Shown here: positions 45,201-58,616 of the stretch, piece after piece
How positions within the stretch are numbered: position 1 is the first letter of the stretch
Layout: every line of letters begins with the position of its first letter
Source of the DNA: Pseudanabaena sp. lw0831
Lineage (GTDB): Bacteria > Cyanobacteriota > Cyanobacteriia > Pseudanabaenales > Pseudanabaenaceae
Reading direction: 5' to 3'
DNA: 64,000 nt
NCBI RefSeq assembly: GCF_016584665.1
Contig: NZ_BBJB01000057.1
Location: 62,001-126,000, forward strand
Translations under genes and position numbers: made by a program
Notes under the pieces: generated by a model
Database searches by the model: none
Told to the model about the DNA's origin: nothing
What the model saw: only the letters and a program-made list of their open reading frames with translations

Positions 45201-45362
45201 TATTTTACAGCGAACTCTATAATATATGGATAATGGTAACTTATGTCAATATTTTTATAATTTACTTTAGTTAATCGCCTACGGTTAGCATTGCTAACCG
45301 TAGGCGATCGCTTGTGAAACGAACCTGAAATGAACCGCACCAAGTATTTGTAGCAATCTCGA
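45201..45362. other. Intergenic DNA with a perfect 17-bp hairpin
   Basis: ATCGCCTACGGTTAGCA (45274-45290) and its complement 45292-45308 form a loop-tight hairpin about 55 bp beyond the stop of the channel-like gene at 45363. It is a plausible terminator of the chemosensory/channel operon. Together with 45012-45200 it makes up the 351 bp between rpsM and that gene. Confidence 0.6.
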
Positions 45363-46394
45363 TTAGCCCACGATCGCCGCATAGGCGATGATAATCACAT
45401 TAAGAACGATAAACGAGATCGTAAACAACCGAAATAAAATATAGCGATCGAACCAAACCGCTTGCTTTCTTTTGCCATTTTCGTTGGTTATTCGTGAGAA
45501 TACGGTAGCAAGGGAGGCTGTAAAGATATAAACGATCGCAATAATGTGAATTTGATCGACCATAGTTAGGCTCTCGGTGCGTCCCAAAACCGATTCTGGG
45601 GCGCGCATATTCACTAAAACTGAAAATAAACATCCTACAAGCAAGCTTGTTCGAGCGCTAACCAAGCTAGGTTCTCCCGTTTCATAGAAAAATGACAGCA
45701 TTGCAACGGCAAAAGCAACATAGAGACCAGCGGTCAGTTTAAAGAAACTTGTATACTTGCTACGCTGAATTGGGATGGAAATCGTCAAACGGGAATGAAC
45801 TCCATCTTTGCCAATTAGCTCTGGGTCGCCAAAATTTGTCTTGTAGGAAACTTTAAGTTCTTCAAAGGTGAAGTCGGTAATATTCCATCCGCTTAACTTC
45901 ATATTGCGTTGATAACCAGAATTTTTAAAGTCAGGTGTATATATAAATTCAGAAGCATCTTGATCGGACTCTAAAGAAATTTTTAAGGTGTGACGATCAA
46001 ATGGATAGTTCTGGACATCCCAACTCTGATACAAGACGGCACTGATGTCTTTTTGAGACCAATAAACTTCACCCTTTGTGGAAAAGGACTCAGAAAGATT
46101 TTTTTTGTCAAGCGTAGTGATAGATATTTCATTGGATTCTAATGAATCAATGATTTCTATGTTTTCTAAAGGTTTAAGTTCTTTGACAGGGCAAACACTC
46201 CATAACCGAAAGTTAGCCGTAAATGATTTGTCTGCAAATTTAAAATTTCGCAAGGATGTAATATAAATTCCGATGCGACAAGTCTGGGGAGGTTTTACTG
46301 GATCTGCGATCGCATCTGGAACTCCTATAAGCATTAGCCAAGCGCTAATACATAAGAGTGAGATAAGAATAAATTTACAAGCTTTTAAGTACAA
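45363..46394 (-). CDS. Pentameric ligand-gated ion channel-like protein (Cys-loop receptor superfamily), paralogue B
   Basis: A 343-residue protein with a signal peptide (about residues 7-30). The beta-rich extracellular domain starts TCRIGIYITSLRNFKFADKS, and continues FRLWSVCP and the Pro-loop signature SWDVQNYPFDRHTLKISLES (as in GLIC YPFDxQTL), then KLSGWNITDFTFEELKVSYK and HSRLTISIPIQRSKYTSFFK leading into four C-terminal hydrophobic helices (AGLYVAFAVAMLSFFYETGE; SLLVGCLFSVLVN; QIHIIAIVYIFTASLATVFS; FRLFTISFIVLNVIIIAYAA). This is the GLIC/ELIC layout. Ligand and ion selectivity cannot be read from sequence. It is a tandem paralogue of the next gene. Confidence 0.72.
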   Translation of the reverse strand: MYLKACKFILISLLCISAWLMLIGVPDAIADPVKPPQTCRIGIYITSLRNFKFADKSFTANFRLWSVCPVKELKPLENIEIIDSLESNEISITTLDKKNLSESFSTKGEVYWSQKDISAVLYQSWDVQNYPFDRHTLKISLESDQDASEFIYTPDFKNSGYQRNMKLSGWNITDFTFEELKVSYKTNFGDPELIGKDGVHSRLTISIPIQRSKYTSFFKLTAGLYVAFAVAMLSFFYETGEPSLVSARTSLLVGCLFSVLVNMRAPESVLGRTESLTMVDQIHIIAIVYIFTASLATVFSRITNENGKRKQAVWFDRYILFRLFTISFIVLNVIIIAYAAIVG

Positions 46395-46433
46395 AATTAT
46401 GCCCTGACTTTAAGAGTAAACAAAAGAGTAAAT

Positions 46434-46472
46434 AATTAGCAATTAGAATTAGCGATTAGAATTAGCGATTAG
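46434..46472. repeat. ATTAGAATTAGCG tandem repeat between the channel-like paralogues
   Basis: AATTAGCAATTAG followed by two copies of the 13-mer ATTAGAATTAGCG. It overlaps the stop of paralogue A (46469-46471) and fills the short gap between the paralogues. Confidence 0.65.
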
Positions 46473-47533
46473 CCGACAATAATTGCGTAGGCGATCGCGA
46501 TGACATTAAACACGACAAACGAGATGGTAAACAGTTGAAAGAAAACGCGGCGATCGAGCCACATGGCAAACTTTTTATTGTTACTTTCAGAAGTTAGCCG
46601 AGAGTAGACTGATACAACGCCAGTTCCAAAAACATAGAGAATAGTGCCAATATGAATTTGGTCTATTAAGGTTAAGTCTTCGGTGCGACCTAAGACAGAT
46701 TCTTGTAAGCGCATACTTAACAAAGTGGCAAATAATGCCCCGATATAAATCGCTCTTCTCGGACTTGCTAAACTTGTATTACTAGAATCGTAGAAGAAAG
46801 ACAACATTGCAACTGCAAAGGCAATATAAACGCCAATAGTAAGCTTAAAGAAACTGAACATCTTAATCCGCTTTATATCAATTGAAATCACTATTCTTGA
46901 GTAACTTTCCTGCTGTGCAACTTGTTCTGGATTCCCAAAAGTAGTTGAGTAGGATATCTTTTGTTCGGCAATCTTAAACTTGGTAATTTGCCAACTGTCC
47001 AAATCAATATTTGGTTTGTATCCAGAGTTATCGAAGTCTGTTGTGTAAACAAACTCCGAGGAATTTTTAGTCGTCTCTTCAAAGGCGATCGTTAATGTGT
47101 GGCGATCAAAAGGGAAATTACTAACATTCCAACTCTGAGACAAAGTTGCTCGAACCTTGCGCCCCGACCAATAAACATTTTCCTGTACATCAAACCATTT
47201 TGATAGGTTTTTCCGCTCATCAGAACTATCATTTGCCACTTTAAAGTTTTTAAAGTCTTCAACATTAAGAACTTTCATACTTTTCAAAGGCTGTAACTCT
47301 TTGGATGGGCAGACACTCCATAAATAGAAATCTGTGCTAAACCTTTTGTCGGGTAGATTTAGATTGCGTAAAGACGCGACATAAACCCCAATTCTACAGG
47401 TTTGCGGTGGTTCAACTGTTGCGGCTAAAACCTCGGTTGAGTCCACAAATGACCATACGATGAGAATTATTGATAGACTCAGTAGCATTCTGAGCAATAT
47501 TCTAAAGTAATTTGAGAAGATCTTTTGTAACAT
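46469..47533 (-). CDS. Pentameric ligand-gated ion channel-like protein, paralogue A, directly after cheB
   Basis: A 354-residue protein from ATG 47533 (a GTG lies one codon earlier). Signal sequence at about residues 12-38; then PPQTCRIGVYVASLRNLNLP, YLWSVCPSKELQPL, Pro-loop SWNVSNFPFDRHTLTIAFEE, DSWQITKFKIAEQKISYSTT and YSRIVISIDIKRIKMFSFFK before four hydrophobic helices. It is co-linear with paralogue B, sharing the two N-terminal Cys, the FDRHTL loop and the ESVLGRTE(S/D)LT..DQIHI segment before M3. Only 6 bp separate it from the cheB stop, so co-transcription with the chemosensory operon is very likely. Confidence 0.72.
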   Translation of the reverse strand: MLQKIFSNYFRILLRMLLSLSIILIVWSFVDSTEVLAATVEPPQTCRIGVYVASLRNLNLPDKRFSTDFYLWSVCPSKELQPLKSMKVLNVEDFKNFKVANDSSDERKNLSKWFDVQENVYWSGRKVRATLSQSWNVSNFPFDRHTLTIAFEETTKNSSEFVYTTDFDNSGYKPNIDLDSWQITKFKIAEQKISYSTTFGNPEQVAQQESYSRIVISIDIKRIKMFSFFKLTIGVYIAFAVAMLSFFYDSSNTSLASPRRAIYIGALFATLLSMRLQESVLGRTEDLTLIDQIHIGTILYVFGTGVVSVYSRLTSESNNKKFAMWLDRRVFFQLFTISFVVFNVIAIAYAIIVG

Positions 47534-47539
47534 CACAGT

Positions 47540-48598
47540 TTAAATCACACGCTGGATTAAGCTTTTGGCGATCGCATCAGGCGACAGAATTTCCATAGCT
47601 GCATTTAACTGAACGGCGGCTTTTGGCATTCCGTAAACAATACAGCTTTTTTCATCCTGTGCGATCGTATGCCATCCCCGCGATCGCAAAACCTTGAGTC
47701 CTTCTGCTCCATCTTGTCCCATCCCTGTTAGCAATACCGCAATTTCTTTCTGATTCCAATGCTGCGATAAACTCTTAAAAAAGACATCCACTGATGGACG
47801 ATAGGGATAGTCAATTGGTTCTTTAATGTAATGCAATGTCAAATCTGCACGCAGACTCAGGTGATCATTAGTTCCCGCCACATGGACAATTCCTTTTTCT
47901 AAGCGATCGCCAGTCTTGGCTAAGCGCACCGTGAGCGGAGTTTGTTGATTTAGCCAATCGACTAGCCCTGCTGAAAATTGCATATCCACATGTTGGACGA
48001 TCGCGATCGCTGCGCCAAAGTTTTCTGGTAATCGAGATAGAATTGTCGCCAGAGCTTTAGGCCCACCTGTTGAGGAACCGATCGCGATTAGAGAAGGAAG
48101 TTTTAGAGATGGTGTGGTGAATGTAGTAAATTTTGAAGTTTGTAGTCTAGAAGTTAGAGTTGAAGTTTGAGTCTTAGAGGTTAATGTTGAAGTTGTGGAC
48201 GATCTGCCTATGAGCTTGCTCAAGGTCACGATTTTTGCCAATAATGGTTGAGCGGAATCGGAAATTCCTTGAACTCCTAAAATCGGTGTATCCACTGCAT
48301 CACGAGCACCATATCCCATCGCTTCAAAAACTTTTCCTGCGTTCTTGCCCACGCTTGCAGTTACGATCAAGATCGTGCAGGGAGACTGTTTCATGATTTG
48401 ACGAGTTGCCTCAACACCATCCATAATCGGCATAAATAAATCCATCAAGATCAAGTCGGGCTTATCTCTAGCACAACAAGCCACAGCCTCAGCGCCATCC
48501 CTTGCAATCCATGCAACTTGATAACTTGAAACGGTTAAAAGCACTCGTTTGAGCGCTTCAACTGCCATAGCTGTATCGTTGACGATCGCAATTCTCAT
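47540..48598 (-). CDS. cheB: Protein-glutamate methylesterase CheB (WspF-like)
   Basis: 352 residues. Receiver domain 1-120 with phospho-acceptor D53 in [20 protein letters not shown]; a Thr/Ser-rich linker (about 135-165); methylesterase domain with catalytic Ser in [14 protein letters not shown], His in IVQHVDMQF and Asp in [16 protein letters not shown]. It removes methyl groups from the receptors below. Last chemosensory gene of the operon, 79 bp after cheA-REC. Confidence 0.92.
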
Positions 48599-48677
48599 TT
48601 TCAGTCTAGGATTTTGGCTAAATTATGGCTAGGTATACTTTAGACTACATTTTGCAGGTGCGATCGCGAAATCCTAG

Positions 48678-50921
48678 CTATCTGCCAATCAGATCGACGA
48701 TCGCATTTACCAGAGTGTCATCGTGAAAACTGCTTTTTGTGAGGTAATAATTTGCACCAGCTTCCATACCCTGAATGCGATCGTCTTCGCGATCGCGATA
48801 GGAGACAATAATTACAGGTAGGGTATGTAATTTCGGATGATCTTTGATTTGTTTGACCAGTTCAATTCCATTCATGCGTGGCATATCAATATCGCTGACC
48901 ACTAAATCATAGGGATTGCTGCGAATCGCCGTCCAAGCATCCATCCCATTTACGGCGACATCGACATCATAGCCGCGATTTTGTAAGAGTTTGCGGGTCA
49001 TTTCGCGAACGGTAATCGAATCATCGACTACCAAAATGCGTTTGCGATCGCTACCCTTAGCTTTTTTAGCTTTGTTGATATCAACGGGGCTTAATTGACC
49101 ACTGCTGAGCGCATTGTCTATGGAGCGGACCAAATCCGAAACATCGACAATCAGGACGGGTGAGCCATCATCCATTAGAGCCGAGGCGCTGATATCGCGA
49201 ACTTTGCCTAAACGCGGATCGAGCGGGCGGACTACGAGATCGCGCTCTCCGAGAAATTGGTCTACTAACAGTCCATAGGCATTGGCTTGATCGCTAATTA
49301 CGACTACACAAAGTGCATCGGAATCAGGCAAAGTTTCGGGCAGATCGAGAATGTGATGGGCGGCGATTAAGCCAATATTTTGACCATCCTTCGTGAAATA
49401 TTGACGACCTTCGACAATATAGATATCAGATTTTTCGAGTTTGACAATGCGATCTACCCTTGCTAGAGGGAAGGCGTAGGGTTCATCGGATATTTTTACA
49501 ATTAATGTTCTAACTACCGAGAGCGTGAGTGGAAGCTGAAAGTTGAAACTGGTTCCATTTTTAAATTGAGATATAGCCCGAATTGTGCCGCCGACTTCCT
49601 GTACCATGCTTTTGGCAATATCTAGCCCTACACCTCTTCCTGAGATTTCCGTTACCTGCTCGGTGGTTGAAAATCCTGATAGAAATAGGAATTCTATAAT
49701 TTCTGCTTCTGAGAGTTGTGCTGCCGTTTCAGGTGAAGCTAAATTGCGATCGATAACTTTTTGACGAATGCGCTCAGGATCGATTCCTCGTCCATCATCA
49801 GCAACTGTAATCGCCAACATACCGCCGCGATGGAATGCTTCTAAACGCACAGTGCCTTCCATCGATTTACCTGAGGCTTCGCGCTCTGCTGGCGATTCAA
49901 TGCCATGATCGATCGCATTCCGAATCATATGTGTAAGCGGCGCTTCGAGCTTTTTGAGAATATCGCGATCGACTAAAGTGGATTGACCGACAATCTGGAT
50001 CTTGACTTGTTTATCTAATTGTCGAGATAGGTCGCGCACCATACGCGGGAAGCCTTGCACACCATCGACAAAGGGACGCATATGGGAAGCAATTACTTCT
50101 CGATAGAGGCGATCGCTTAAGTTGGTAGTTCGCCGAGCATAAAGTTCTAGTTCGCTGAGGCGATCGGTGAGGATTTCGCGACATTCTTGGGCTTTGCGCC
50201 GCGCTGTATCGACAATCTGTTGATTTTCAGAACCAATTGGTGTATTTGCGATCGCTGTATGAATTGTTTCCAAAAGTCGAGCTAGTTCCGATTGACGAGA
50301 TTTGAGTAACGTGAAGGAATCGGCAAAGGGTTGCAACCAATTTGCTTCCACCAATGATTCACCCGCTAATCCCATAATCCGATTCAAATTTTCGGCAGTG
50401 ACTCGTACCACGCGATCGCTGGGTATGGTAATCGCTTCAAAAGTAACATTCTCTTGCCGTAGCCCTTTTCCTGTCTCCAAGCTTTGATCGACATTGACTA
50501 AAGATGACGGATGGAGCGTATCAAAATCAGTCGGCAAGAGGGCGGCGATCGCGGCACAACAAGCCTCAAACTGCCCTACGCGCTCGTTTAGCCATGCAAT
50601 TAAATCGATTTCGGCAATTTGGGCGATCGCTTGCAATAGATCAACACCTTGCAATAAGACATCAATTTCGTCTGAACCGAGAGTAATAATCTGATTCTGG
50701 GCAGCCACAAAACAATCTTCCATACGATGCGCCAACTGAATCAGTTTTTCAAGAGAAACAATTCTTGCCGCTCCCTTAATCGAATGCGCCGCTCGCATTA
50801 ACGCTTCTAAGACCTCCTCTGATTGAGGATTGGTTTCCAAAATCAATAGTCCCTGAGTCAGGATCGCCACCTGTGTCTCAGCTTCTTGCCGAAATAGCTC
50901 TAGCATCGAATCATCGCTCAT
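48678..50921 (-). CDS. cheA: CheA-type histidine kinase with C-terminal receiver (WspE-like)
   Basis: 747 residues. Hpt domain with H46 in LMRAAHSIKGAARI; linker; dimerisation and HATPase with N-box HMIRNAIDHGIESPAEREAS, VADDGRGIDPERIRQK and ISGRGVGLDIAKSMVQEVGG; CheW-like domain (YAFPLARVDRIVKLE); receiver with the acceptor Asp in DLVVSDIDMPRMNGIELVKQ. The short P1-P3 spacing and attached REC match WspE/hybrid CheA. Its start overlaps no gene; cheW lies 2 bp upstream. Confidence 0.93.
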   Translation of the reverse strand: MSDDSMLELFRQEAETQVAILTQGLLILETNPQSEEVLEALMRAAHSIKGAARIVSLEKLIQLAHRMEDCFVAAQNQIITLGSDEIDVLLQGVDLLQAIAQIAEIDLIAWLNERVGQFEACCAAIAALLPTDFDTLHPSSLVNVDQSLETGKGLRQENVTFEAITIPSDRVVRVTAENLNRIMGLAGESLVEANWLQPFADSFTLLKSRQSELARLLETIHTAIANTPIGSENQQIVDTARRKAQECREILTDRLSELELYARRTTNLSDRLYREVIASHMRPFVDGVQGFPRMVRDLSRQLDKQVKIQIVGQSTLVDRDILKKLEAPLTHMIRNAIDHGIESPAEREASGKSMEGTVRLEAFHRGGMLAITVADDGRGIDPERIRQKVIDRNLASPETAAQLSEAEIIEFLFLSGFSTTEQVTEISGRGVGLDIAKSMVQEVGGTIRAISQFKNGTSFNFQLPLTLSVVRTLIVKISDEPYAFPLARVDRIVKLEKSDIYIVEGRQYFTKDGQNIGLIAAHHILDLPETLPDSDALCVVVISDQANAYGLLVDQFLGERDLVVRPLDPRLGKVRDISASALMDDGSPVLIVDVSDLVRSIDNALSSGQLSPVDINKAKKAKGSDRKRILVVDDSITVREMTRKLLQNRGYDVDVAVNGMDAWTAIRSNPYDLVVSDIDMPRMNGIELVKQIKDHPKLHTLPVIIVSYRDREDDRIQGMEAGANYYLTKSSFHDDTLVNAIVDLIGR

Positions 50922-50923
50922 GA

Positions 50924-51667
50924 TTAAAAAACCTTGTGACTTAGGGTGTAAAACAATTGATCGGAATCCAAAAAGTTAATCTTCTTACCTTGCCAAGTGA
51001 CGACTCCTTTGGTATAAGCTTCCGATGCTTTGGAAATGACCACAGGCGCATCTTTAAATTCATTGAGATGGAAGCGATAAGTTCCATGCACCTCATCGAC
51101 AGGAAAGACCCACTTGTTCTCATTCTTGCCAGCGACAATCATCCTCTGAGGATTAATTGTATTTGTGAAATCTGCTGGTTCCGCGATCGACTCTAGACTG
51201 AGTAAATCTCTGAGCGAAATACAGAGTAATGTTTCTCCCCGAATATTGATTAATCCCAAAAATACTGAGTTACTGCGGTGTGGGACAGTGTGAATGGGAT
51301 AGGGCGTGGTTACTTCTTGGAGAATGTTAACAGGCAAGGCTAAGCGTTCGTTACCAAGTCGAAAGATAATCACCGAAAGCGTATCGGTGGCGCGAACTAG
51401 GGTTCCTTCACCGATTCCCGACTGATTAGTGGAAGCTTCTGACAAGATATCAGTCCATTCCTTGAGGTATTCAGGGGGTGCGTTACGTTCTAATAGGCTA
51501 CGTCCTGCTGCCGAGTATACTTTGCAGTTGCGACAATGAATGACTGTTTTTAATTCGCCACAGGTGCGATCGCCCATTACGCCAATTTGATTCCAGCAAT
51601 CATTGAGAGTCGGTTGGTCAAGTTCCGAATCATCAGGTATGGGTACTATATTCAAATGATTTTCCAT
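50924..51667 (-). CDS. CheW-domain adaptor with Cys-rich N-terminus (WspD-like)
   Basis: 247 residues. The first 55 residues contain CWNQIGVMGDRTCGELKTVI and HCRNCKVYSAAGRSLLERNA, a Cys-rich motif typical of Wsp-type CheW proteins. The CheW fold follows (VIIFRLGNERLALPVNILQE; VFLGLINIRGETLLCISLRD). It couples receptor signalling domains to CheA. It ends 2 bp before cheA. A repeat element separates it from the receptor gene upstream. Confidence 0.85.
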   Translation of the reverse strand: MENHLNIVPIPDDSELDQPTLNDCWNQIGVMGDRTCGELKTVIHCRNCKVYSAAGRSLLERNAPPEYLKEWTDILSEASTNQSGIGEGTLVRATDTLSVIIFRLGNERLALPVNILQEVTTPYPIHTVPHRSNSVFLGLINIRGETLLCISLRDLLSLESIAEPADFTNTINPQRMIVAGKNENKWVFPVDEVHGTYRFHLNEFKDAPVVISKASEAYTKGVVTWQGKKINFLDSDQLFYTLSHKVF

Positions 51668-51700
51668 TGGCTATTGTTCTCCATTTTTATACTATTGCTA

Positions 51701-52004
51701 AGATCCCCCCCCAGCCCCCCTTGTAAAGGGGGGAGAAGATAATTCAATTCTCTTTGCTTTATAAGCTAACGTATATACACAAGTCTCTCTGTCTTCGTTT
51801 TGATTTATTAAGAAATCCCCCAATTCTGGGGGACTTTGAAAGACTTTTATTTTCTTGTTCCCCCAGAGTTGGGGGCTAGGGGGCGATAAGGGCTTGGCTT
51901 GATTGGGTTTTATGACTTGTCTGTGCACGATAGCTTGTAAAGGAAAGGGGAGAGAATCGAAAATTATCTTCTTCCCCCTTTTTAAGGGTGATTGAGGGGG
52001 ATCT
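51701..52004. repeat. 304-bp inverted-repeat element (MITE-like) within the chemosensory operon
   Basis: Left end 51701-51744 (AGATCCCCCCCCAGCCCCCC, then TTGTAAAGGGGGGAGAAGAT) is an imperfect inverted copy of the right end 51961-52004 (reverse-complement AGATCCCCCTCAATCACCCT...GGGGGAAGAAGATAATT). Inside are further C/G-run hairpins (CCCCCAATTCTGGGGGA at 51815-51831; CCCCCAGAGTTGGGGG at 51859-51874). No target duplication is visible. It fills the 386-bp gap between the WspD-like cheW and the receptor gene. Confidence 0.7.
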
Positions 52005-52053
52005 AAACCTTGAAACGTAGTCAGAAGAACTTGTCTGTACATTATATTTAACA

Positions 52054-53808
52054 TCAGGCTATCACCTTAAATCTGGCAATTTCCGTCTTTAAAGTGTGAC
52101 TCGCTTCATCAAGCTGTCCTAAAGCATGATTAGTCTCACGCAATGAACCTGCGGTCTGCTGCGAGGCTTGACTGAGATGTTCCATTGCTTCACTGATTTG
52201 TTGCGCTCCTTGCGATTGTTCATCTACGCTCTGACTGACCTGCTCAAAGCGCGGAGTCAATCCCTGTACTTGCTGAATCACTTCTGCAATTTGTTCGCTA
52301 ATTCTGTCCACATCTTCAACGTTATGCACTACTGACTCGGTAAACTTATCCATTTCGGTTACACCAATGGAAACTGCTGATTGCATTTCCTTGATCATCT
52401 GCTCAATTTCCAGAGTTGCCACAGCCGTGCGATCGGCTAAGCGGCGAATTTCCCTTGCGACAACGGAGAAACCCGCCCCATATTCTCCTGCTCTTTCAGC
52501 TTCTAGCGCCGCGTTCAGGGAAAGCAAATTAGTTTGATCGGCGACAATCATGATCGTGGTCACGACGCGGCTGATATTGTTGGCGCGGGCGTTCATCACT
52601 TCTAGTTTGGAAGAAATAATTTGTGTACCTTCCAACAACTGTCCCATCACGGCATTGATGTGGTGCAGATTGTCTTTACTATTTGCTGCGGCGATCGTGG
52701 TTTGTTCCGCTGCCGCCGAAACCTGTTCCATCGTTTTTACCAATTGCTTTGATGTCGCAGCAATTTGGTGCGCGGTAGCCGATACTTCATTGGTAGAAGC
52801 AACCTGTTCGGCAACCGTGGCTTCTAAATCTCTGCCTGAAGCGGTAATGCGATCGGTGGAACTGGTGATTTGATTGCCAGACTTTTGAATGCGATTAACT
52901 AGGGTATTCAGGTCTTTATTCATCGTGTAAAAGACATTCTGTAATTGACCGACTTCATCTTCTTGTTCGGCAGGGGAAATCTCGCTCGTCAAATCCCCTG
53001 CGGAAATTTTGTGAGCGATGTCAACTACTCCTGCAATCTTCGCGCCTAGAGGTTTAGCGATCGTGTTGCTAAAGAAGATGCCAAATAAAATCGCAGTCCC
53101 AGGACCAATGATAATGGCGACAAAAGCCCAAAAGCCGACTTGAGAGACATCTTGCGCTGATATACTTTCGGTCTCTGAAGCAAGATCTTGATTAATCTTT
53201 AACAGGGCTAAAAGTAGATCGGTGGCGGCGGTGAAGGGTTGGCGGTTGATCTCAACTTGCTTTCCGAGATCGCTAAGTGTAGAAACGCTTGTAACTGGAT
53301 TTTTCACTGCATTTACAGGATTTGTCGCTGGATTTTCCAGTGGATTTATGACAGGGCTGGTAATTACGGGGCTAGCAACTCCACTATTTTCATACCTGAG
53401 ATTGATTCTTAAGAACTCTTCATGGGCTTTCTTCCATGCCTCCCACTTCTCTAGAAAAGCTTTATAGGTTTTCTTTTCAGTGTCCGACTTAGGAGTGGCT
53501 TCATATTGATAAAATCCCTCTTGAATTTGTTTCCAAGCATTATCCATGCGAGTGATCTCCGACTGTCGCCGATCCTTACTGAGATTAATATCTAGTAAAC
53601 CGCGCTCCGATGATTCAATCTGGGTTTTTCCTTCATTGATTTTCCATAGACTGGCAATGCTAGGGAGATTGTTTTTGGCTAAAGTATTGATATGTTTACT
53701 CAAGCGAGAACTACCGCTTAAACCCACCAAAGCAACAATTAATACCAAAACTCCCATAAAGAAGAAGGCAAAGAGGAGACGGGCTTGCATCGATTGATTT
53801 TTGAACAT
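52054..53808 (-). CDS. Methyl-accepting chemotaxis protein 2
   Basis: 584 residues. TM1 at about residues 10-32 ([20 protein letters not shown]); periplasmic four-helix-type sensor to about 222, with a short [20 protein letters not shown] repeat insert; TM2 near 225-248; HAMP to about 300; signalling domain with the hairpin-tip region [40 protein letters not shown] and [20 protein letters not shown]. It senses an unknown cue for the CheA below. It starts 1 bp from the cheR stop. Confidence 0.88.
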
Positions 53809-53809
53809 C

Positions 53810-55069
53810 TTAGGTTCCTCCTCCTAAACTAGAATTGGGAAGCCGTGATGCGATCGCCGACATTCTCTGTCGAATGATATTGGCTCCTGTTGTATCTCCC
53901 TGACTTTCCTTTAACAACGCAAGATGAATTAGGGCTTCATAGGAATTTGGCTCTAGATAAATAGCGCGTTGAAAGCATTGATCTGCTTTTTGGGATGCTT
54001 GAGGATTTTGGCGATCGGCTTGGTATAGCTCGCCTAAAAGTACATAAGCATCGGCACTGGTGGGATATTTTTCTAGATAGTTTTTACAAAGCGTGGTTGC
54101 ATCGATTAGTTTTCCTTCATTTGCTAGTTTTCTCACTACTGGTAAGTCGAGAGATGGGCTTGATTGAGCGCTTGAAATTGTAGATAAATGCATTTTGGGA
54201 ATTGTTTGCATATCTAGTGTGGTGGGAATTTGAGGAGGATTACTGAAATTAAGAGATGGTTTGATAGGGACTGGAGGGAGTTCCAACTTGCGATAGGCAA
54301 AGGTGAAGGGCTGACGAATGGAACTGTACTGCTCTGGGACGATTTTTCCAGTTTCCGAACCGCCCACAAATAACAATCCACCTGCGACAAGTAAGGGATC
54401 GATCGCTGCTAATACTTGCGTACAAACTTCTGGTTTGAGGTAGATCAATAAATTCCGACAAAAGATAATGTCATATTGCTTTTGATTAGTAGCTAAAGTC
54501 GTTATCACATTGCCTTGCTGAAAATTGACCAGATCACGAATAGATTTAGATAGCTCATAACCTTGATCATTTTGTTGAAAGTAATGCGATCGCTCCTGCC
54601 ATGCATCACCACGAAAGGAGTTTTTGGTATAAATACCACGCCGCGCCTTGGTAAGCGATCGCTGACTAATATCGATCGCATCGATTGTAAATTGTTTGGG
54701 TTGTAAACCTGCTTCGAGGAGAGAAATAGCGATCGAGTAAGGTTCTTCGCCCGTTGAGGATGGGACGCTCAGGAGTTGCAAAAGATTGCGGTTTGGTTTA
54801 AGTCGCCATTCTGTATTGACATAGGTTTTGAGATAATCAAAGGGTTTACCATCGCGAAAAAACCAAGTTTCTGGCACGATAATTAGTTCGATCAGTTCCT
54901 CTAATTCAATCGCCGAAGTTTGTAACCGCGTCCAATAGCGATCGATGTCAGGTAAATTACAGCTAACGCGCCGCGTCTCCACCGCCCTAGTAATTTGGCT
55001 AAGACCGACCACATCGGGATCTAAACCGATGGTTTGGCTGAGTAATTTGGTGATTTTAACTAAAGCCAT
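53810..55069 (-). CDS. cheR: CheR methyltransferase with C-terminal TPR (WspC-like)
   Basis: 419 residues. CheR N-domain (about 1-70); SAM-binding domain with the [20 protein letters not shown] motif, [20 protein letters not shown] and [11 protein letters not shown]; then a linker and TPR-type repeats at about 320-410 ([40 protein letters not shown]). It methylates receptor glutamates. The TPR tail is the WspC-type arrangement. It lies 20 bp after the upstream receptor gene. Confidence 0.9.
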
Positions 55070-55089
55070 CAGTAATCCTAGCTAGCAGC

Positions 55090-56688
55090 TTAAGCAGTTT
55101 TGAACTGAGCAATTTCTAATCGTAATCGATTTGCCGCCTCGTCAAGCTGTCCTACCGCACCGTTGGTTTCTCGCAAAGCATTCACTGTCTGCTGCGATGC
55201 CTCAGTGAGTTGTCCCATCGCTTCACTAATTTGTTGCGCTCCCTGTGATTGTTCCTCAATGCTCTGACTCACCTGCTCAAAGCGTGGGGTCAATCCCTGC
55301 ACCTGTTGAATCACTTTCGCAACCTGATCGCTAATCTTGCTGACATCAGTAACGCTATCAACTACAGATTTATTAAACTTATCCATTTCCATGACACCTG
55401 TGGAAACTGCTGACTGCATCTCTTTGATCATCTGCGCGATTTCCAGTGTTGCCACGGCGGTTTGGTCAGCTAAGCGACGAATTTCACGGGCGACCACCGC
55501 AAAACCTGCGCCATATTCTCCTGCTTTTTCAGCTTCGATCGCCGCATTTAACGACAACAAATTCGTCTGGTCAGCCACTTTATTAATTGTTGTCACCACG
55601 CTATTAATATTGTTCGCCTTCTCATTCATTACCCCAAGTTTAGTAGCAATAGAAGTAGTAGCATCGGAAAGTTGACGCATGACCGTACCCATGCGGTTCA
55701 GATCGGTTTGACTCGCACCTGCCTCAGTTGCAGTCGAATGCGCCATCAGCGCCACCTGCTCCATGACTCTGACTAATTCTTTGGAATTTGCCGCAATTTG
55801 ATTAGATGTAGCATTCACCTCATTAGTGGAAGCAAGTTGTTCGACAACAGTAGCTTCTAATTCTTTACCTGCGGCGGCGATTTGGGTGGAAGAGGTACTA
55901 ATCTGTACTCCCGATTTTTGCATCTGAAGAACTAGTAAATTCAACTTTTTGGACATATTGTGAAACGCAGCCATTAACTTGCCAACTTCGCTCGGATCGT
56001 TGCTTAGCTCAATGGTTTGTTGTAAATCGCCATCGGCAATCTGCTCGGCGGCTTGGACTACTTTTGGTAATTGACGTTGCAGTGGTAAAGCAATCCATAG
56101 GGCGATCGCGATCGTGATTACCGTCACCAACAAAGTTCCCAACAAAATTACTAGGTTTACTAAGTTTTTGGCTTGTTCTGCTTCGCGAATATTATCGTTA
56201 AGTCGATTTTCGAGAATCTTCAGAACGCGCAGACGCGCCTCATCAAGTTTGGCAAGGCGCGGCGTTAAAATTTCCCGTTTCGCATCGTCCAATTTATTGT
56301 CATCAACAAGGGGATAAACTCTGGCGGCAACGCGATCGAATTCATCACCAAGTTGGAGCATCTCATTGATCGAGTCTTGAGCTTTGGCATCAACTACCTT
56401 TACCAAATCCTGCCTATTTTGGGTCATCGATTCTCGCGCCTTATCATAGGTTCCGCGATAGTACTGGTCTTTTGGATAAAGAGCATAACCGCGAATACTG
56501 GCAATCACCCTAGACACATCATAGGCAAACTCATTGGTATCCTTGATGTTTTGGGCAACTTGCCTTGAGTCATCCTGCAATTTGATGAGGTTAGCCGTAC
56601 TTGAATAGATAATCGTTCCCAACACGATTAGGAACAGAATTGGCAGTGAGAAGCCTAAAATGAGACGATTGGTAATTTTATTCAACAT
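55090..56688 (-). CDS. Methyl-accepting chemotaxis protein 1
   Basis: 532 residues. TM1 at about residues 9-33 (LILGFSLPILFLIVLGTIIY); periplasmic helical sensor to about 175; TM2 about 178-200 (LVILLGTLLVTVITIAIALW); HAMP; signalling domain with [20 protein letters not shown] and [20 protein letters not shown]. The signalling half is close to that of the receptor at 52054, so the two probably arose by duplication with divergent sensors. Confidence 0.9.
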   Translation of the reverse strand: MLNKITNRLILGFSLPILFLIVLGTIIYSSTANLIKLQDDSRQVAQNIKDTNEFAYDVSRVIASIRGYALYPKDQYYRGTYDKARESMTQNRQDLVKVVDAKAQDSINEMLQLGDEFDRVAARVYPLVDDNKLDDAKREILTPRLAKLDEARLRVLKILENRLNDNIREAEQAKNLVNLVILLGTLLVTVITIAIALWIALPLQRQLPKVVQAAEQIADGDLQQTIELSNDPSEVGKLMAAFHNMSKKLNLLVLQMQKSGVQISTSSTQIAAAGKELEATVVEQLASTNEVNATSNQIAANSKELVRVMEQVALMAHSTATEAGASQTDLNRMGTVMRQLSDATTSIATKLGVMNEKANNINSVVTTINKVADQTNLLSLNAAIEAEKAGEYGAGFAVVAREIRRLADQTAVATLEIAQMIKEMQSAVSTGVMEMDKFNKSVVDSVTDVSKISDQVAKVIQQVQGLTPRFEQVSQSIEEQSQGAQQISEAMGQLTEASQQTVNALRETNGAVGQLDEAANRLRLEIAQFKTA

Positions 56689-56703
56689 AAGTTTTGGGGT
56701 TAT

Positions 56704-57174
56704 TTAGGTAGTAATCGAATCGCGATCGCCCATCAGCAAATAATTATGTCGCTCATCACTGAAAAGTTTCTCAAGCTGCACACATTGAATAATTCTCTTC
56801 TCATCAACAATCGTACCGCTTAAATAAGGCGCTTCCTCAACCCGAATATTAGAATCATGAATATCGGCATTGGAGATACTCAAAGTCTCCGTCACCCGCT
56901 CCGCCATCAGCCCTAAATATTGCAGCGATTGGTTTTGCTGTGGATATTTGACGATAATGATCCGCGTACTGAGATGAGGACGACTGGGGCTTCCTTGGAT
57001 CAAATGGCAAAGATCGATCACGGGCAAGATTACGCCTCGATAGTTAAATAGACCAGCCACATAGTCGGGAACATGATGTACCTTTCTAAAACTAACTCGC
57101 GGAATCACTTCAACAATATAAGAACTGTCGATCGCATAGAGGTCTTTGCCAGCATAGAAAAGTAGAATTAGCAC
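56704..57174 (-). CDS. CheW adaptor protein (WspB-like)
   Basis: 156 residues, single CheW fold: MLILLFYAGKDLYAIDSSYI, VEVIPRVSFRKVHHVPDYVA, GLFNYRGVILPVIDLCHLIQ and STRIIIVKYP. Probable first gene of the Wsp-like operon, 15 bp before the first receptor. Together with the second CheW (50924) it matches the two-adaptor layout of Wsp clusters. Confidence 0.88.
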   Translation of the reverse strand: MLILLFYAGKDLYAIDSSYIVEVIPRVSFRKVHHVPDYVAGLFNYRGVILPVIDLCHLIQGSPSRPHLSTRIIIVKYPQQNQSLQYLGLMAERVTETLSISNADIHDSNIRVEEAPYLSGTIVDEKRIIQCVQLEKLFSDERHNYLLMGDRDSITT

Positions 57175-57192
57175 TTTTAATACACTTTTAAT

Positions 57193-57465
57193 TTAAGATT
57201 CCGATTGTCGAGCGCTTGCTCTTGCCAACAAAACACCGATTTGGATACCAATCATACCCGCGATCGCACTGCCTAAGCCAGTAATTCCTTTGGAAATCGC
57301 GAAAAAGAAACCCATCGCTAGACATCCAGTTAAATTAATACCAAATGTTGCATAGGGAAACTTCGTTCCAAATTTAGCCTTTGACCATTCTGTGAGGTAA
57401 AACCGAGACAATGCTCAAGGCACTGCACCTGAAGCGATCGCAAGAGGGATAGTAATATCTGACAT
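57193..57465 (-). pseudogene. crcB: Fluoride channel FluC/CrcB gene with in-frame stop and internal deletion
   Basis: From ATG 57465 the frame reads MSDITIPLAIASGAVP, then TGA (57415-57417), then in the same frame [40 protein letters not shown]. That is the FluC opening G(A/G)xxRxxL..W...FG..FPxGTxxxNxxGCF. After SKGI it jumps to [20 protein letters not shown], the last helix. The central part with the TTFSTF region is missing, so about 90 codons remain of the usual 120-130. Both lesions argue for a dead gene. Confidence 0.75.
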
Positions 57466-57594
57466 TAGTTAGTAGAAATGAAGTCGCTGAAGTTTTAGGA
57501 TATTGTAATCACCCCAAAGGAGGATACCTATATCTAAATATAAGTATTATCAGCAAGTCACTTAGTTGTAAAATGAATAGTTTTAATTATCTAT

Positions 57595-58527
57595 ATGCAT
57601 CAGATTGATATCAAAGAAATCGACTTAAATCTGTTAAATATTTTAAAAGTTCTCCTTGATGAAGTTAGCGTTACTAAAGCCAGTGAAAAACTGAGCTTAA
57701 GTCAATCCGCAACTAGTCATGCTTTACAACGATTGCGAAAAATGTTTAACGATCCATTGCTAGAGCGATCGGCATCGGGTATGCGTCCCACCCCTAGAGC
57801 GATCGCCATACGAGCATCCCTTAGAAATATCCTTCTGAATATCGAACAGCTAGTGGCAGAACCGATTTTTGTCCCAGCCTTAGCCGAAGTCACAATTCAC
57901 ATCGCCTCGTCAGACTATGGAACCACCGTCATTCTTCCCTCAGTTATAAAACAGCTTTCTCTCTCTAGTCCTTCTATTAATGTAGAGATTGATGGATCGC
58001 ATACCGACATTTTTGGAAAGCTCAAAGATGGAAAAATCGATCTCGGCTTAGGGGTATTTGATCTGGATGGAACCAAGGGATTTAAGACTCAAAATTTATT
58101 TACAGAACGTTTTGTATCCATCGTCAGAGATGATCATCCTATTCTTGAAGATATTACGCTTGAGTCCTATATTACTTCGCCACATACTTTAATCACCACT
58201 ACAGGTTCACCATTGCCCGAAACCAATAAATTATTTAAAAGTCATGTCGATAGCAAGTTAGAAGAATTAGGAGTCAAACGGCGATTGATGCTAAAATTAC
58301 CGCATTTTCTATCTGCGGCTCTCATTATTGGTCAAACTGATCTTATTTTGACTTTACCGCGCCGTATTGCTTCACTTCTAGCGAGTTTTGCTAATGTAAC
58401 CATGTTTGACCCACCGATTGATTTAGGTGAATATAACTATATGCAAGTTTGGTCTGAACATAGCAATAACAGTCCATTTCATATATGGCTACGCAATCTT
58501 GTCTATTCCCAATCTCAAAATATTTAA
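57595..58527 (+). CDS. LysR family transcriptional regulator
   Basis: 310 residues. N-terminal winged HTH: LNLLNILKVLLDEVSVTKAS, EKLSLSQSATSHALQRLRKM, FNDPLLERSASGMRPTPRAI. The periplasmic-binding-like effector domain follows (about 90-300; VTIHIASSDYGTTVILPSVI). The HTH and the SHALQRLR signature place it near the NodD/SyrM-like branch. It is divergent from the chemosensory operon and could control it or a gene elsewhere; no effector can be named. Confidence 0.85.
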   Translation: MHQIDIKEIDLNLLNILKVLLDEVSVTKASEKLSLSQSATSHALQRLRKMFNDPLLERSASGMRPTPRAIAIRASLRNILLNIEQLVAEPIFVPALAEVTIHIASSDYGTTVILPSVIKQLSLSSPSINVEIDGSHTDIFGKLKDGKIDLGLGVFDLDGTKGFKTQNLFTERFVSIVRDDHPILEDITLESYITSPHTLITTTGSPLPETNKLFKSHVDSKLEELGVKRRLMLKLPHFLSAALIIGQTDLILTLPRRIASLLASFANVTMFDPPIDLGEYNYMQVWSEHSNNSPFHIWLRNLVYSQSQNI

Positions 58528-58616
58528 GTAATGTTACATGGAACCGTCCTCTCTTTCATCAAGTGCGAGAGTGACGGCTCCACGAACCATCAGTAATTTA
58601 GTTACGCAAAATCACC

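Follow-up and report, generated by a model that had tools for sequence, protein, structure and literature searches.

Why would two genes for putative ion-channel subunits lie directly behind the last gene of a chemosensory operon? This question is raised by a 64,000-nucleotide stretch of the genome of Pseudanabaena sp. lw0831 (hereafter the window), where the minus-strand order from 57174 to 45363 is cheW1, mcp1, cheR-TPR, mcp2, cheW2, cheA-REC, cheB, CHAN1 and CHAN2 (Table 1). A preliminary description of this DNA had placed the first channel start 6 bp from cheB on the same strand, followed by a second channel gene and preceded by a complete seven-gene receptor-CheR-CheW-CheA-CheB set. Indeed, the ORF coordinates give a cheB stop at 47540, a CHAN1 start at 47533 and a gap of 6 bp (47539-47534), CHAN2 follows at 46394-45363, and all seven che genes were confirmed by Pfam. 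The range reported earlier, 46469-57174, has to be extended, since it excludes CHAN2 although the accompanying text mentions this gene. No sigma-70-like site was found in the cheB-CHAN1 interval by a promoter scan, and the promoter and terminator counts from scans across the region did not exceed those of shuffled sequence. Between mcp2 and cheW2 lies an insert of ~385 bp (51668-52053) that is missing from P. frigida and belongs to a dispersed repeat family, with 67 partial matches in the genome.

Table 1. Features of the che-channel region, in coordinates of the window
Feature	Coordinates	Strand	Basis and remarks
cheW1	56704..57174	-	Pfam CheW
mcp1, transmembrane receptor (MCP)	55090..56688	-	Pfam; sensory half diverged from P. 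frigida, as are the channels
cheR, C-terminal TPR, WspC-like	53810..55069	-	Pfam
mcp2, transmembrane receptor with 4HB sensor domain	52054..53808	-	Pfam
cheW2, WspD-like	50924..51667	-	Pfam
cheA-REC hybrid kinase, WspE-like	48678..50921	-	Pfam
cheB, REC-CheB methylesterase, WspF-like	47540..48598	-	Pfam; stop TAA at 47542-47540
CHAN1, pLGIC-type channel subunit, 354 aa	46469..47533	-	ORF, ATG at 47533; family profile, predicted fold
CHAN2, pLGIC-type channel subunit, 343 aa	45363..46394	-	ORF, TTG start; family profile
17-bp perfect inverted repeat, 3' of CHAN2	45274..45308	-	Repeat search; candidate operon end
Short tandem repeats (13-nt x3 and 12-nt x2), CHAN1/CHAN2 gap	46412..46472		Repeat search
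Decayed crcB1/crcB2 fusion, internal stop	57196..57465	-	Relic of Planktothrix-type upstream crcB-crcB(-channel)
lysR, divergent	57595..58527	+	62-67% identical to LysR flanking Planktothrix clusters
Block of channels, che cluster and lysR, between NYN gene and rpsM	45263..58616		blastn breakpoints

CHAN1 and CHAN2 are ~50% identical to each other. Both match the Pfam family Neur_chan_LBD below its gathering score (24.3 and 15.9 bits against a cutoff of 26; E=2.4e-5 and 0.009), while a profile of the 25-member family matches ELIC (2.5e-13) and GLIC (~1e-11) in the PDB over the whole length. The AlphaFold2 single-chain model of CHAN1 (pLDDT 85.1, pTM 0.71) consists of a signal-peptide-like N-terminal helix followed by a domain rich in strands and by four long helices, in line with a fold of extracellular beta-sandwich plus four TM helices; all four TM helices are predicted at high confidence. 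The solved structures that best match the model are all pLGICs (Foldseek E 4e-19), with Z 23.9 and an rmsd of 2.5 over 283 residues for a GLIC-GABAA chimera and Z 23.6 for GLIC itself (3eam). Membership of the superfamily of pentameric ligand-gated ion channels (pLGICs), whose build is that of animal neurotransmitter receptors, though weak by Pfam alone, is thus firm by the family profile and the predicted fold. A search with PF00060 (Lig_chan), which represents the wrong superfamily, gave no match.

The residues of the family agree with this assignment in part. The Pro-loop PFDRH (D143) and the pre-M1 Arg (R222) are invariant in 25/25 homologues, as are Arg 0' and Phe 9' of M2, and Gly 6' is found in 24/25. 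M1 has no proline in the alignment of the 25 homologues; in pLGICs an M1 proline is usually present. The loop reads SWNVSNFPFDRHTLTI and does not hold the two cysteines of the disulfide-closed Cys-loop of animal receptors. Another cysteine pair, C46 and C75, is kept or missing as a pair in each homologue, which suggests a disulfide joining the first two strands. The -1' residue of M2 varies among homologues (P, A, S, G, D or N), and therefore we do not assign an ion selectivity. GLIC (Gloeobacter) and ELIC (Erwinia/Dickeya) share with the window's channels the fold, the Pro-loop PFD, the pre-M1 Arg, the four TM helices and the absence of an intracellular domain; only a short cytoplasmic loop is present in our channels, with no part known to dock Che proteins. 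In contrast to GLIC and ELIC, to which they are only ~16% identical, the window's channels lack the M1 proline, have Phe at 9' and, in the first strands, a conserved pair of cysteines, and are encoded by tandem two-subunit genes in a che operon. Four genomes retain the CHAN1/CHAN2 pair as two ortholog groups in the channel tree, as would fit a two-subunit channel. The source genome also encodes a 742-aa protein (G000:C49, L014:16-2244) in which a periplasmic-binding-protein-like domain is fused to a pLGIC-like channel, resembling two proteins in G006.

Conserved linkage to che genes had been predicted for the channels, and this prediction was strongly borne out when about 85,000 species genomes were scanned and whole-genome searches added. 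With a close channel defined by 37% identity or more and the window included in the count, the same seven-gene che cluster adjoins the channel in 13/15 cyanobacterial loci, in two different operon positions. The linked loci besides the window are P. frigida, Nostoc 106C, UBA11153, S06.Bin197, five Planktothrix-type contigs and three Microcoleaceae/Oscillatoriales contigs. In the two Pseudanabaena (window and P. frigida) the channel pair lies 3' of cheB, while all other linked loci have one channel or a tandem pair immediately upstream of cheW1. Because the association recurs in many other genomes, the adjacency of cheB and CHAN1 is not a matter of chance. The pattern also holds when read from the che side: among 386 genomes of the phylum, only four have a cheW2 of 74% identity or more, and channels of 39% or more occur in these four and no others; within the Planktothrix/Microcoleus family a cheW2 of at least 85% occurs in 7/61 genomes, and in all seven the contig that holds it also has a close channel, at a distance of ~4-7 kb. 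One additional close channel of this family (G469) adjoins cheW1 on a short contig, and in one MAG (G442/L161) channel and che genes are both broken. The combination that the preliminary description had set against its proposal, namely a promoter of the channels' own and no conserved linkage, was not found: linkage is conserved and no promoter-like site was seen. On this comparative evidence, a complete chemosensory operon of the source strain and several relatives includes pLGIC-type channel genes as a conserved component.

Chamaesiphon and Prochloron (2/15 loci) have the channel and no CheB ortholog at E 1e-60, and none of the channel homologues outside Cyanobacteria adjoins che genes; the channel can therefore act alone. 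The che cluster of P. rubescens (G290; L157:851-3548) has a transposase-like ORF between cheA and cheB and a cheB split into two ORFs, and UBA11153 has, downstream of cheB, a gene for a B12-dependent ribonucleotide reductase with an internal LAGLIDADG intein (L156:1317-4724).

The operon had further been described as Wsp-like. The CheR-TPR form is characteristic of ACF pathways, Wsp among them (PMC3447774), and by Pfam and gene order the window shares with these pathways MCP, two CheW, CheR-TPR, CheA-REC and CheB in one operon. It differs from them in having two MCPs and added pLGIC genes and in lacking WspR: no REC-GGDEF protein was found in the window's cluster among ORFs or by Pfam. The name therefore fits the gene set and CheR-TPR but not the defining output. 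No REC gene follows cheB in the downstream flanks examined of the other channel-bearing clusters; the P. frigida contig, which stops 315 bp past CHAN2, is uninformative in this respect. Among related channel-free clusters, 11/13 have a receiver-effector gene beside or near cheB, of the REC-cyclase(-TPR), REC-SpoIIE or REC-HisKA-HATPase type (seven called by Pfam and four by similarity to the cyclase domain), and two channel-free clusters lack a REC effector as well. Cyanobacterial clusters of this kind (G101, G341, G166, G232 and others) share the core gene set, with cheW2 44-63% identical, but have a REC-cyclase, REC-SpoIIE or REC-histidine-kinase effector, no channel and mostly a longer CheA. 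All channel-bearing clusters fall into a single clade of a concatenated Che tree (97% bootstrap), so the missing effector and the channel represent one correlated event and not many.

The history of the operon also bears on function. The concatenated Che tree places the window and P. frigida, fully supported, as the sister group of Planktothrix. In the channel tree, however, CHAN1 and CHAN2 of the window and P. frigida group with the two Nostoc and Chamaesiphon channels (100/100, 100/99), and those of Planktothrix, Microcoleus and S06 make up a separate clade (100/100), so that the two trees are discordant with full support. In Planktothrix, an intact LysR-flanked crcB-crcB-channel arrangement lies upstream of cheW1 (two tandem genes of the fluoride-channel family crcB, then the pLGIC gene, then cheW1, in L055, L057, L058 and L059). 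The window has a crcB1/crcB2 relic ~20 bp upstream of cheW1, and P. frigida retains a crcB2 tail at the matching site. Rfam detected no riboswitch in the window or in six linked loci, and thus no fluoride riboswitch, L058 and L059 included, despite crcB. Because of the discordant channel lineage and the relic at the upstream site, it is likely that the upstream channel was lost and that another lineage's pair was gained at the 3' end. Alternatively, both channel types may have been present in the ancestral operon and then lost differentially. Loss and regain of a channel within one operon would be hard to explain without a function, and a dN/dS of 0.12 between the window and P. frigida indicates that the channels are under purifying selection.

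The cluster is nevertheless mobile. The NYN gene and rpsM are adjacent in six congeners (G011, G012, G014, G022, G029, G032) but are separated in the window by a block of ~13.35 kb, with blastn breakpoints at 45262 and about 58616; in P. frigida, cluster and channels lie at a different locus, beside transposase-like ORFs. Between these two strains, dS is 0.16-0.36 for the core che genes and 1.26-1.49 for metG and NYN, so the che core was shared recently, while dS of ~1.2 or more for CHAN1, CHAN2 and most of the MCP1 sensory half marks these as a separate evolutionary partition in this pair. Joint replacement of MCP1 and channel as a general rule was rejected, since channel dS is not raised in the Planktothrix or Microcoleus pairs. 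With a mobile block and a single channel-bearing clade, much of the co-occurrence reflects shared descent or co-transfer.

Such a block might carry the channel genes without any functional tie to the array, as the different insertion sites in the two Pseudanabaena species, the transposase-like neighbours in P. frigida and the two carriers that have a channel but no cluster would allow. We consider this unlikely, since several families are linked in two positions, a channel was apparently lost at one end and replaced by another lineage's pair at the opposite end, the 6-bp spacing occurs in two different arrangements, and the channels are under purifying selection. Another thought is that the pLGIC fold is kept in a protein that does not conduct and serves as a periplasmic sensor contacting the MCPs. 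The unusual M2 (Phe 9', Gly 6') and the M1 without proline speak for this, but M2 length, 0' Arg, Pro-loop Asp and pre-M1 Arg are all retained and the four TM helices are confidently predicted, which makes it very doubtful.

The position of the channel pair in the window, where sister clusters have their REC effector, and the lack of an effector gene in channel-bearing clusters would fit the channel as an output: CheA or the array would control ion flux in place of the missing receiver effector and create an electrical signal, for example for filament reversal. Filamentous genera are among the carriers, and a role of membrane potential in filament reversal has been raised, though not studied (PMC4284469). 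This is possible but less likely than a role as co-sensor, and overall quite unlikely: the channel has no receiver, phosphorylation site domain or cytoplasmic domain, most lineages place it upstream of cheW1 and away from the effector position, and effector loss is one event in the tree and also affects two channel-free clusters. Direct control by CheA is possible, with no visible molecular handle, and we give the smallest chance of all to the full scheme in which CheA activity gates a two-subunit pLGIC as the effector of the array and cyanobacterial filaments coordinate their gliding reversals by way of the resulting electrical signal.

We favor, at roughly even odds, the explanation that the channels are genuine, selected operon components, probably forming a two-subunit pLGIC that acts as an ionotropic co-sensor of a Wsp-like array without WspR. 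The subunits would be co-transcribed with the che genes and assemble into a pentamer made together with the Wsp/ACF-type array of two transmembrane MCPs, CheA-REC, CheR-TPR and CheB, and the periplasmic domain would bind a cue (a ligand or protons) that is relevant to the MCPs too. Channel opening would then conduct ions or depolarise the membrane beside CheA signalling, and the coupling step could take one of two forms: a second input, in which the MCPs respond to the ion or to the change in proton-motive force, or a direct action on the surface-motility motor. Ligand-gated ion flux coupled to receptor signalling, as proposed in the preliminary description, may thus reasonably be inferred.

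GLIC and other pLGICs are used to model the structure of human neurotransmitter receptors, yet a bacterial pLGIC is still described as poorly characterised in its physiological setting (PMC12664993). From fused or neighboring PBP, MCP-N and Cache domains, bacterial pLGICs were predicted to have chemotactic roles (Tasneem et al., 2005; PMC549065), and our operon resembles those cases in that a pLGIC accompanies sensory modules. As far as the relevant portions of that paper go, however, the context consists of ligand-binding domains and no CheA/CheB/CheR operon is named, whereas here the CheA/CheB/CheR/MCP operon is complete. Literature searches outside subscription journals turned up no report of a pLGIC within a che operon of cyanobacteria; what is new here is a Wsp-like array without WspR and with pLGIC genes. 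The named carrier genera are capable of gliding. Reversals appear coordinated along Nostoc hormogonia (PMC5812497), and the pLGICs of che operons offer a specific candidate for signalling by ions within filaments. A pLGIC pair in a che operon suggests a function for a bacterial channel family about whose natural role little is known so far, and its presence in a complete Che operon in Planktothrix, Microcoleus, Nostoc and Pseudanabaena makes the 2005 idea of a chemotactic receptor directly testable.
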